A stretch of 64,000 nt of DNA from Moringa oleifera (lineage: Eukaryota; Streptophyta; Magnoliopsida; Brassicales; Moringaceae), in contig JAJFZO010000191.1 in assembly GCA_021397835.1 (NCBI GenBank), positions 5,523,001 through 5,587,000 on the forward strand, written 5' to 3'. Each line of letters starts with the position of its first letter. Within the stretch, counting starts at the first letter, position 1. A program made the translations under genes and the position numbers. The notes under the pieces were generated by a model. The model searched no databases and was not told the origin of the DNA. It was given only the letters and a program-made list of their open reading frames with translations. Shown one piece after another: positions 14,585-44,867 of the stretch.

Positions 14585-15799
14585 TCTCTTCTTTGAAGCC
14601 TTCCCTGGCGGGAAGGACGTTGGTTGGATTTGAATAAGAAAAAAAACAGGAAAAGGAAACAAAAAAAAAAAAAGAGAAACAAACTCCAGATCAGAACCAA
14701 AAGTAAATATATATGTTTTTCCTTGTTGGGCACTTCTCCCCTTTAAGGAGGGCTGGAACCTGGAACAGACGGTGAAAGTAACAAGAACGGTGATTATTAA
14801 ATAATTAGATAAAAACAGCAAATATTGTGATCAAATGGGCCCAACTCCTTATGAACTCGACAGAATGTTTAAGAACCGGGCTGAGAAATTGCATAGTGTG
14901 AAAACAGGATCATCCACTGCTCTCGGAGCATTTTCAGAAGAATGACGAAGTTAAGCACTTGCAATTGGGTACATCATAGCATAAAATTCATGTCAAACGA
15001 CCTGTAAAAGAAAGGTACGTTAACATGTGTTGAATGTGTACATGTTGATAAGTATAGTTGTATTAATTGGAAAAAGTATACAATGTACGATGAGATTTTC
15101 TATGTAGATTTTTCAAATCGATTTCTTTAGCTTTTACAGCAATGTAGCACATTTTCTCCATCAACTGTTTTTATTTATTGTCACTTATTCTTCAAATTCC
15201 CTTCAATTTTTTTTTCTTTTTGCCAGCAAATCAGTTGTCTCTAAACCATTCATGAATTCATATAAATATGAAGCAGTATAGAAAAATATGACTTTGATAA
15301 GAAAAACAGATCTCTTCATAAGAAAAGGTTATCTTTTTGGTTAAATATCTTGATTTCTGTGACGTGTTATGGTATTATGATGAACCAGATAATTTAGCAA
15401 TACCCAGTAACTGGCCTGCCCAGAACCAGAATCTCATGAGAGCTTCACCAGTAAAGGATAAGAGGCCCTGATTGTTAATTGACTCCTCCCGAATACCAAA
15501 GTTTCTGTCTCCTGACCTCCAGGGGCATCTCTTCCAATACTTGGAGATAATGGATTTTAATCACAGAGAATCTGTTCATAAAGATTACATTAGCCCAATC
15601 AGATGGAAAATCAGAGATAAGGTCCAAAAGGAAACCCTCGATCTCCGACAACTTTGCAGCCAACAAGTAACTTCAAGCAATTTGATTGAAAGAAACAAAG
15701 GGATGATATCACATTTGTGAATATATAATTACCACATACAGCTTCCAACTCTAAACTATAAAACAGTGTAGTTTCAGGGTATCTCATAAACTACACAGG
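14585..15799. other. PPR promoter side and bHLH downstream region
   Basis: AT-rich DNA between the PPR start and the bHLH 3' end. It should contain the PPR promoter. A frame at 15472-15720 has no recognisable family and looks fortuitous. Confidence 0.45.
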
Positions 15800-34561: not shown

Positions 34562-36985
34562 TCACTTAGCTGTGATGCTTAAAAGCATTAAACATTTTTC
34601 TAGCTTGGATGAAGGCACAACTTTGGTTGCCATGTTAGATGGATTTTCATCAATCATCACTTTATCTAGAATTTCACCATTCTCAATCATTTCACGAACA
34701 AAGTGATATTTAACATCAAAATGCTTTAATATTTCATGGTATACTAGATTTTTAAGCAAATGAATTATAGATTAAGAATTATTAAATACCTTCACCTTAC
34801 TAGAACTCAGTTTCATTTCTTCCAACAAACTAACAAGCCAGCTTGCTTTTTTAAAACCTTTAGTCTTTGCCATATATTTAGCTTTAGTACTTGATAAAGC
34901 TATCATTGATTGAAGCTGTGCTTTCAACTAATGTAGTATTCGTTAAACAAGAAAACATATGTAGACAAGGACCTTCTTTTATCTTTATCACTTGAAAAAT
35001 CTGAATCCACAAAGCCTACCAACCCTTTTTGCGTCATGTCTTTTTTCTGATAGATCAAACCGTAGTTGACAGTATTCTTTATATGATTGAGTAGCCATTT
35101 AATAGCTAGCCAATGTTCCTTGCCTAGATTAGCCATGTATCTACTTAGAACACTCAGTGAATAAGCTAAATCTAGTTTACTACATACCATTACAAACATT
35201 AGAGAGCCCACTGTATTTGAGTATAGGATACTGGCCATTTACTCTTTTTCTTCTTTTGTTTTAGGATAACACTTGGCTGAAAGCTTGAAGTGGCTTCCTA
35301 AAGGGGTGCTAACTCCCTTAGCTTGATGCATTTTAAATTTTGATAATACTTTTTGTAAATAGAGTTGTTGATTTAGCTTTAACTAATTTCTAATCCTTGT
35401 CAATGTTAATGCCTAGAATCTTTTTTGCCTCCCCCAAGGCCTTCAAACAAAATTCTTTACTTAACATTATTTTCACTAGGATTATTTACATCTTACTGTT
35501 ATTAGCAAACAACATATCATCAGCATATAGTAATAACAATACTGCCTCATCAGTTCTAACTGATTCAATGTAGAGATAAACATCATGCTTGCTCCTTACA
35601 AAGCCTTGATAAAGAACATAAGAGTCAAACCTTTTATACCATTGTCTTCGTGATTACTTCAAACTATAGAGTGACCTTTTGAGCAAGCAAACTCTATGCT
35701 GCTTGCTTTTTAATTGAAACCCTTCAGGTTACCTCATGTAAATAATCTCTTCAAGCTTACCATGAAGGAATGTTGTTTTAATATCCATTTGATCTAATTT
35801 CCATCCCTCCAAAGCAATATTTGCAAGTATTAATCTTATAATCTTGTACTTGACAATAGGGAAGAATACTTCATTATAATTAATACTAACCACTTGAGAT
35901 AAACCTTTTGCAATAATTTGGCTTAAACGTCTTAAAACCAACTGCATATCCTTCCTTAAGCTTGAAGATCCATTTATAATCTATCATCTTCTTACGTTTT
36001 AGTTTATCAACAATTTTTCAAGTTTCATTACTCATTAAAGACTTCATTTCTTCTTGCATAGCTGCCAACCAGTGTTCAGAGTGTTAGCATCTCATTGCCT
36101 CTTTATAATTAACTGGTTCATGGTTTATAAATAGTTCTGCAAAATTCAGCGTAGTTGCAATACCTTGATCATCATCTTCTACTTGACTAAAATGGGAATC
36201 AGTTAGTTGGAATCTACTGGGTGTCTTATAGATCTCTTTGTTCTATCCCTTGCTAGCTGATAACCTCTCAACTAATCAGCATCATGATTTTTATCACCAG
36301 GATCTTTTTCATGCTTACTTGTTTGAGCCTGACTCGTCATTGACTGCTTCTATCATCTTTTAGGTTATTAGTAAGTGTGGCAAATTGAATTTGCCTAACA
36401 ACAGGCTCCATCTCAACTCCAAATCTCTCGGGTATGTCTATTGCATCATAAGACTTATTATGATCTAACTGAGTTGGCATTTTCTTTACCATAAGGCATT
36501 CAAATTTTTTTGAAGATAATATCTCTAGAAATTAGAGTCTTGAATCCATTTCCTTGCTTGCTACAAATTTTGTATCCCTTAACACTATCAGGATATCCTA
36601 GAAAAACTCCTTTAACTGACCTTGGATCTAATTTTCTTAATCTTTGATATGCATACATAACACAACTAAGTACTTTTAAATGAGACAAGTTGGGAAGCTT
36701 ACCACTCCATAATTCTTTAGATGTTTTTAGTCCAATAGCTTTAGATGGACTTATGTTAACCAAATAAGTAGCTGTTATAACTGCTTTTCCCCAAAATCCT
36801 GTAGGTAGATTAGCAATATACAACATACATCTAACTTTCTCCATTAAAGTTTTATTCATTCTCTCTTCCATAACATTTTGATGTGGAGTTGCTCTAACTG
36901 ATTTATGCCTTAAGACTCAAACTTCTTTACACAATTGATCAAATAAGGCATTGAAAAATTGTAGGCTGTTATCAGTCCTGAAACT
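34562..36985 (-). pseudogene. Ty1/copia pol fossil (integrase, reverse transcriptase, RNase H)
   Basis: Reverse-strand fragments in the normal copia order. Integrase: FRTDNSLQFFNALFDQLC (about 36925-36985), then MEERMNKTLMEKVRCMLYIA and PTGFWGKAVITATYLVN, then SVKGVFLGYPDSVKGYKICS (36500-36871). Reverse transcriptase: GWKLDQMDIKTTFLHGKLEE (about 35750-35820) and the catalytic YADD motif at 35516-35527 within LLYADDMLFANN. RNase H: DLAYSLSVLSRYMANLG (about 35100-35200) and ILKHFDVKYHFVREMIENGE near the end (about 34660-34730). Stops and frame changes lie between the pieces. Gag, protease and the 5' half of integrase are absent, cut at 36985 by the gypsy fragment. Not functional. Confidence 0.9.
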
Positions 36986-39092: not shown

Positions 39093-39182
39093 TGGGCCGA
39101 TCATCACGGACGCAACCCGACCCAAGACAGAAACAGGCCCAGCCCGATGGCAAGTAATCGCTATAAATTTCTAAAACCCTAA
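39093..39182 (+). promoter_or_regulatory. Site II / TATA / telo-box promoter
   Basis: Ordered elements in 90 bp: TGGGCC at 39093-39098, GGCCCA (the same site II element, inverted) at 39136-39141, TATAAAT at 39162-39168, and the telo-box AAACCCTAA at 39174-39182. In plants this combination is characteristic of ribosomal-protein and snoRNA genes, which is what lies downstream. Transcription would run on the + strand, starting near 39190-39200. Confidence 0.7.
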
Positions 39183-39617
39183 TCCCAAACGCAACAAGTT
39201 AGCCCCTGTAACCTTTAGTCACCTATACACATCTGAATAAGTCTCAATGATTGACGGCCCCATCAGCCATACTATCGACAATTGGTTTCTTGAGTTTCTA
39301 GTTTCGGGTACATTTATTAGTGAATCAGGAGAAATTTGATCAAAAAATTGAACGATGAGGCACCAACTAGCCCCTTGCTTCTTTGAAGTTATAGTTGCAA
39401 GGAAAAAGTTCGAGTATAGGGTTTTCTGAGTGCGAGAGCCAATCCCATTGGCGTTAGCGACTTTTGTTCTTTGCAGCGAATAAGATAACACTGCATAGAG
39501 TTTGCTTTTGCCAAATAAAAGAGACACTTTGGTGCTCATGTTTTTCTTGTACTAGTGTGAGTTTTACTCTTCGGTTTTTTTGTCCCGTTTCTGTGCGGCT
39601 TTGGTTACCTCACAAAG

Positions 39618-39707
39618 CAAGGCAAGATGATGAGCTACTTTCGACCTGAATTTCTATGTGGAATATTTGTGTTCCGTTATGGTCTTCAAAGTTCTCTGAT
39701 TGCTTCG
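39618..39707 (+). ncRNA. C/D box snoRNA, copy 1
   Basis: Box C ATGATGA at 39627-39633, box D' CTGA at 39646-39649, a C'-like ATGTGGA at about 39656-39662 and box D CTGA at 39696-39699. A short terminal stem pairs GGCAA just before box C with TTGCT just after box D. The 15 bases before box D, GGTCTTCAAAGTTCT, should be the guide; they pair with the 25S rRNA segment AGAACUUUGAAGGCC as I remember it, with one G-U pair. By the D+5 rule the methylated base would be the C of AGAAC. Copy 2, with the same guide, lies about 340 bp downstream. The D' guide differs between the copies. Not matched to a named snoRNA. Confidence 0.72.
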
Positions 39708-39961
39708 CTGTTTTCTGATCTTTTACAAACTTTTATCCCATGTGGATGATTCTTAACCTGATTTATTTTCTTGTTTTTCTTTCTCTCTTTTTTTTTACTG
39801 GCTTGGGTTGGTGGGTTTTATCGTATGGGGTCAACCAGTGAAGTCTTTTTTTTTTTTTTTTGTGATAGAAAGTCCGCCTGAAGTTGTTTCACTAGTTAGC
39901 ATCTCCCAAATGTATGTTGTGTACTCAGAAATTGTATCTTGGTGGCCTCTGGTTCTAGCTG

Positions 39962-40052
39962 AGCAGAGCAAAATGATGAGATTTTATTAACTGAAATCGA
40001 TGTGAAACAAACCTTATCGAATTGGTCTTCAAAGTTCTCTGATTGCTCTGCT
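39962..40052 (+). ncRNA. C/D box snoRNA, copy 2
   Basis: Box C ATGATGA at 39973-39979, box D' CTGA at 39991-39994, C'-like GATGTGA at about 39999-40005 and box D CTGA at 40039-40042. A perfect 10-bp terminal stem, AGCAGAGCAA (39962-39971) with TTGCTCTGCT (40043-40052), brings boxes C and D together, as required for the kink-turn. The box D guide is identical to that of copy 1 (GGTCTTCAAAGTTCT), while the internal part has diverged. Conservation restricted to boxes and guide is what selection on a snoRNA pair would leave. Probably processed from the same primary transcript or intron host as copy 1. Confidence 0.8.
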
Positions 40053-43955: not shown

Positions 43956-44867
43956 TCAAACAAGATCACAAGGGAGCTCCTCAGATGGCTTCTTTATTGA
44001 GAAATCAAGTAGCTTGCAACGGTAGAACAATGATCCTAAGGTGAATGCGAAGAGTAACCATGGAGCCCAGCTGAATTCAAGTGGTAAAAATGCGCATAAC
44101 AGTATTGTAAACGAGAGGATGACACCAATGATTGCTATCATGCTAAAAACCTTACTCATCCTGGGAGACTTCTCCCTGAATATGACTCCATTGATAGCAG
44201 AGAAAAACACCACCATCAAATCCATCAGAAAGATGATGAATAAGTATTGCCGTCTGTAAAATATTTCCGGTGAAGGGTGCTCCTTGCTCATTTTATAGTT
44301 GATGCTTAGCAGAGAAAGCATGGCTGTAAATGCTAGTACCGTGGCCACTGTAATCCATTTGAATGAATATTTTTTGGCTAACAGGTTTTCGTCTATGTTG
44401 TTAGTGTCTTCCATAGAGTTCAAATTAATGCCAAGATTATCATCAGGGACACTGTCGGTCTCAGTTTCAGTTACTGTATTGTTGGTCTTGAACCGGGTAG
44501 CCATCTCTATGTCACCATGATCCACTTCAGCGGAAACAAACGAGTCCGGAGAACTTCTCGGGTCCTGTAATGATCAATATTTGTACATTGAATGTTAATC
44601 TCCTGTATCATATAGCCAACCTTGTCAATGAAAAGGAAAAAAAACAGAATTGATGTTGAAGCGATATCTTACCATATGAAGAAAGTGAGAGAAGAGGATC
44701 GTCGAAAAGAATACGTATACTATGAGACTTACAAATCTTATACAGAAGCTAGCTTGGAGACAGAAGAAGAAGGGAGAGGCTTTAAACACAGAGAGAGATG
44801 ATTTATGCTCCATAGGAAAACGATACAGGAGCATGGAAACGTGATTATTACCAAGCAACTCGGACAT
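43956..44867 (-). CDS. Small multipass membrane protein A of a local cluster
   Basis: Unrecognised plant membrane protein. Exon 2 is 44564-43956 and encodes an acidic N-terminal stretch, then four likely membrane helices: WITVATVLAFTAMLSLLSI, FIIFLMDLMVVFFSAINGV, MIAIIGVILSFTILLCAFLP and APWLLFAFTLGSLFY, with a short hydrophilic tail. A phase-0 intron (acceptor TTACAG at 44565-44570) can join it to exon 1, 44867-44733, whose frame starts at MSELLGN and ends at a GTAAGT donor, giving 247 residues. Alternatively exon 1 is untranslated and translation starts at MATRFK (44504), giving 182 residues. The helix-loop-helix segment with REKSPRMSKVFSM resembles the equivalent part of the two genes at 46777 and 48784. 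No known domain, signal or catalytic motif was seen. Confidence 0.65.

Follow-up and report, generated by a model that had tools for sequence, protein, structure and literature searches.

Within the 64 kb stretch of Moringa DNA that was analysed (hereafter the window) lie two box C/D snoRNA elements, arranged in direct order and both on the + strand. Their parts, with the evidence by which each was placed, are as follows:

39617..39708, + strand: snoR160 copy 1 including its terminal stem (Rfam match 39621-39704; stem folding)
39627..39633, + strand: box C ATGATGA of copy 1 (box scan and re-read sequence)
39646..39649, + strand: box D' CTGA of copy 1 (re-read sequence)
39681..39695, + strand: D guide GGTCTTCAAAGTTCT of copy 1 (exact guide search and re-read sequence)
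39696..39699, + strand: box D CTGA of copy 1 (box scan and re-read sequence)
39962..40052, + strand: snoR160 copy 2 including its 10-bp terminal stem (Rfam match 39967-40047; stem folding)
39973..39979, + strand: box C ATGATGA of copy 2 (box scan and re-read sequence)
39991..39994, + strand: box D' CTGA of copy 2 (re-read sequence)
40024..40038, + strand: D guide GGTCTTCAAAGTTCT of copy 2 (exact guide search and re-read sequence)
40039..40042, + strand: box D CTGA of copy 2 (box scan and re-read sequence)

The paired elements and their family

The original prediction had described two C/D box elements with box C ATGATGA, D' CTGA and box D CTGA at near-identical spacing, and direct reading of the sequence confirms this, with a C-to-D' gap of 12 nt in copy 1 and 11 nt in copy 2. 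It had further proposed an identical 15-nt guide directly before box D in otherwise diverged copies, and both parts of that description hold: a 25-nt block, TGGTCTTCAAAGTTCTCTGATTGCT, is common to the two copies and has just two exact occurrences on the window's + strand, at 39680 and 40023, whereas the copies have diverged from one another in the stretch from D' to the guide. The terminal stems are likewise as described, copy 2 having a perfect stem of 10 uninterrupted pairs (z -3.24; 0 of 200 shuffles fold equally well) and copy 1 one of eight pairs with one interruption (z -1.95; 9 of 200). Thus, in each copy an RUGAUGA box and a CUGA box are joined by a terminal stem, which is the defining architecture of box C/D RNAs. 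When both strands of the window were scanned for [AG]TGATGA followed downstream by CTGA, four candidates came up on the + strand and two on the - strand; requiring a terminal run of at least five pairs left three of these six, namely copy 1 (six pairs), copy 2 (10) and a candidate at 15377 (five). The last of these, at 15377-15471 on the + strand, is a third box C/box D-like pair, which no Rfam model matches at gathering score.

The original prediction recognised no published name for the elements, and in this respect it was overtaken by the Rfam check, which did supply one. When Rfam 15 was searched at gathering scores over the 64 kb window, both copies matched RF00203 snoR160, copy 2 with 64.8 bits and copy 1 with 55.7 bits against a cut-off of 42, and these were the only two matches at gathering score in the whole window. 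RF00203, which we take to be a plant family, is covered end to end in both copies (model positions 1-80 of 80), with substitutions and short insertions or deletions in their middle part. Between 38.5 and 41.0 kb, relaxing the Rfam E-value to 5 revealed no additional snoRNA, the eight matches being the two to RF00203 and six below the cut-off that belong to other C/D families and are placed on the same two copies. A whole-genome search gave two RF00203 matches, both at the present locus, a number that is a lower bound as scoring covered 66 of the 61424 first-look candidates; 14 control genomes gave no match to the family, a result of little weight as the makeup of that set is not shown. The family is already curated and its target site already published, and the locus adds a pair of members to it.

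The surroundings of the pair contain, at 35729-36916 on the - strand, copia-like retrotransposon remnants in separate frames:

35729-35980, - strand: RVT_2 domain (Pfam)
36500-36916, - strand: retroviral SH3-like domain (Pfam)

An open frame at 34924-35238 (- strand) has no Pfam match. The snoRNA family, the promoter motifs described below and these retrotransposon remnants are all in keeping with a plant genome. On the other side, at 43956-44573 (- strand), lies an open frame of 205 codons that includes hydrophobic stretches; its only Pfam match, Cation_ATPase_C, stands at 17.2 bits, under the cut-off of 27.3.

The guide and its position in 25S rRNA

The guide region was compared with the first 3500 bases of the 25S rRNA in the rDNA stretch L019. 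Pairing starts at box D and runs contiguously over 16 nt in copy 1 and 17 nt in copy 2, with two G-U pairs per copy, one of them inside the 15-nt guide. When the copy 2 guide region was shuffled 500 times, no shuffle attained 16 pairs; the longest run, 15, came up in two of them. The D guide is therefore what is expected of a C/D RNA, an antisense stretch directly before the box that pairs with rRNA. The earlier claim that this guide pairs with 25S rRNA with one G-U within its 15 nt is borne out by the genome's own rDNA, which also shows the 25S sequence given with that claim to be correct.

Exact matches to the guide number six genome-wide, and all six are accounted for by the two snoRNAs and four places antisense to rDNA copies. 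These four read GACC where most rDNA copies read GGCC, and it is the GACC form that is the exact complement of the guide. The 19-mer of the 25S target, taken with either GGCC or GACC, has 62 exact matches in the genome, 61 of them with GGCC. It is spread over many contigs (L001, L004-L006 and L009-L018), and the copies inspected include shortened or altered rDNA.

The position that a box C/D RNA directs for methylation is given by the well-established D+5 rule. Here, counting upstream from box D, the fifth nucleotide is a G, and its partner is the C of AGAAC in 25S, so that under this rule the predicted 2'-O-methylation site is the C of AGAACUUUGAAGGCC in 25S rRNA. The same rule is named in PMC8053127, Table 1 of which sets out 74 mapped methylation sites of Arabidopsis 25S rRNA; among them is C1479, mapped by RiboMeth-seq and assigned there to SnoR147.

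The numbering was approached by a letter check, in which the first 30 Arabidopsis sites (U44 to U2114) were compared with six rDNA loci at five offsets, L019 and L015 being parts of one rDNA copy and L020 and L017 of another. In L020/L017, 22 of 30 methylated letters agree at offset +3, as against 5 to 13 at the other four offsets; at +3 the letters agree at every one of the 20 sites listed between A661 and C1518 inclusive, among them C1479, while the four sites that precede A661 fit offset 0, as a 3-nt length difference would lead one to expect. In L019/L015 agreement is highest at offset 0 (14 of 30, including C1447, A1459, G1460 and C1479; 6 to 12 at other offsets), and no offset is supported in L001 (6 to 10 of 30) or L013 (7 to 10 of 30). 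The two longer stretches, L019 and L020, contain shortened 25S copies. Plain counting without gaps, begun at the motif of the 25S start, places the nucleotide at C1479 in L015, C1482 in L017, C1505 in L013 and C1379 in L001 and L010, which are the same place, and yields no result in 13 of 18 loci, because the copies carry insertions or deletions or are without the 25S start. By letter agreement with the published sites, then, the predicted target C corresponds to Arabidopsis 25S C1479, and the guide of both copies places that nucleotide at D+5, as is expected of a SnoR147 guide. The choice of the C of AGAAC in the original prediction is thus upheld by both the rDNA pairing and the numbering check.

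Promoter-like region and the nature of the gene

Upstream of copy 1, at a distance of 435-525 nt, a motif scan placed two Site II motifs, a TATA box and a Telo-box within 39093-39182:

39093..39098, + strand: Site II element TGGGCC
39136..39141, - strand: Site II element (GGCCCA on the + strand)
39162..39167, + strand: TATAAA box
39174..39182, + strand: Telo-box AAACCCTAA

Just one place in the window combines a Telo-box with two or more Site II motifs inside 100 bp, and one of 200 dinucleotide shuffles produced such a combination; since the 100-bp criterion was chosen after the site was seen, this result is to be taken as a rough guide. Telo-boxes number four in the window against a shuffle mean of 0.96, and Site II motifs alone are not enriched in it (32 against 32.4). 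According to PMC4660826, the combination of Telo-box and Site II is characteristic of the promoters of plant polycistronic snoRNA and ribosomal protein genes; both motifs stand upstream of the present pair, at 39093, 39136 and 39174.

The family match, boxes, stems, rDNA pairing, target position and promoter motifs computed here are present at the locus, and co-transcription, processing, expression and methylation are what we infer beyond them. The whole is very probably a dicistronic plant snoRNA gene in which two copies of snoR160 guide one methylation. Transcription by Pol II would proceed from the Telo-box/Site II promoter near 39.1 kb and would yield a single precursor carrying the two paralogous box C/D snoRNAs, this being the most economical reading of their arrangement. 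Processing would cut each snoRNA back to roughly its terminal stem, fibrillarin would be bound, and the common D guide, by pairing with 25S rRNA, would direct 2'-O-methylation to the C of AGAAC (Arabidopsis C1479). On the best reading, the pair arose by tandem duplication and constitutes an ordinary dicistronic snoRNA gene.

One might instead suppose that only one copy is active, with the other a paralogue in decay. Copy 1 would be the candidate for this, given its lower score (55.7 against 64.8 bits) and a terminal stem that is shorter than that of copy 2 and interrupted (z -1.95 against -3.24). However, copy 1 retains all boxes, the full guide and a stem, and exceeds the RF00203 cut-off; since these elements were kept while the stretch from D' to the guide diverged, selection appears to have acted on both copies, and such decay is improbable. 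The D' boxes invite a different proposal, namely that each copy has a second target of its own: the D' CTGA is kept in both, and the best D' pairing, that of copy 2, extends over 14 nt with four G-U pairs in the 18S part of L019. Yet this pairing starts elsewhere than at D', 11 out of 500 shuffles, made with the D guide region against 25S, gave a length of at least 14 by chance, and the two D' guides differ from each other as well as from the Rfam consensus. As the D' guides had no convincing target in the rDNA (25S and partial 18S), second targets are very unlikely, and it is less likely still that the pair is splitting its functions at the D' site, with the D' halves diverging toward separate targets while one 25S guide is kept.

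As against a simple dicistron, the snoRNAs could also lie in introns of a host gene, whether coding or not. The 435 nt between the promoter motifs and copy 1 leave room for an intronic origin or for two separate units, and Telo-box/Site II promoters also drive ribosomal protein genes, according to PMC4660826. Against this, the interval from 39.2 to 41.5 kb has seven open frames that are 70 codons or more in length, none with a Pfam match at E 0.01, on which ground a coding host gene was set aside, though short exons or a spliced non-coding host would escape such a search; we consider an intronic location about as doubtful as the decay of one copy. A tRNA-snoRNA dicistron was also discarded, ARAGORN finding no tRNA in the window.

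Relationship to known snoRNAs and snoRNA genes

The analysis adds to the annotation of one genome a snoR160 locus of two copies together with its promoter-like region, and it connects snoR160, the name used in Rfam, with C1479, a published methylation site of Arabidopsis. What is seen belongs to the ordinary machinery of ribosome making and leaves the view of snoRNA function unchanged. With the RF00203 model both Moringa copies have in common the boxes, the D guide GGUCUUCAAAGUUCU and the terminal stem, while they differ from it in the middle part and in standing here as two copies in tandem. With Arabidopsis SnoR147, as given in Table 1 of PMC8053127, they share an identical predicted target nucleotide, 25S C1479; judged by this common target alone, Rfam snoR160 and SnoR147 are likely one family.

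The name snoR160 itself is a source of confusion. In passages of PMC7464842, the Arabidopsis "snoR160" is an H/ACA RNA with 25S U2855 as its proposed site of action, and it has nothing but the name in common with the box C/D family RF00203; as far as these passages show, the same name has come to denote two different RNAs, the C/D family of Rfam and the H/ACA RNA of Arabidopsis. In the literature searched, the name was met only for this H/ACA RNA and RF00203 was met nowhere, and the main texts of PMC8351944 and PMC11542601 contain none of C1479, 1479, snoR147 and snoR160.

A passage of PMC5122169 dates snoR147 to the ancestor of seed plants and places it in rice in a cluster with snoR44 and snoR17. 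In contrast to that cluster as there described, the window has RF00203 matches only, and the Moringa arrangement thus seems unlike that of rice, provided that Rfam includes the snoR44 and snoR17 families. The Telo-box/Site II polycistronic snoRNA genes of plants, as described in PMC4660826, carry a Telo-box, Site II elements and a TATA box upstream of clustered snoRNAs, as is found here; in comparison with such polycistronic genes, the present locus has only two members found, both of one family.
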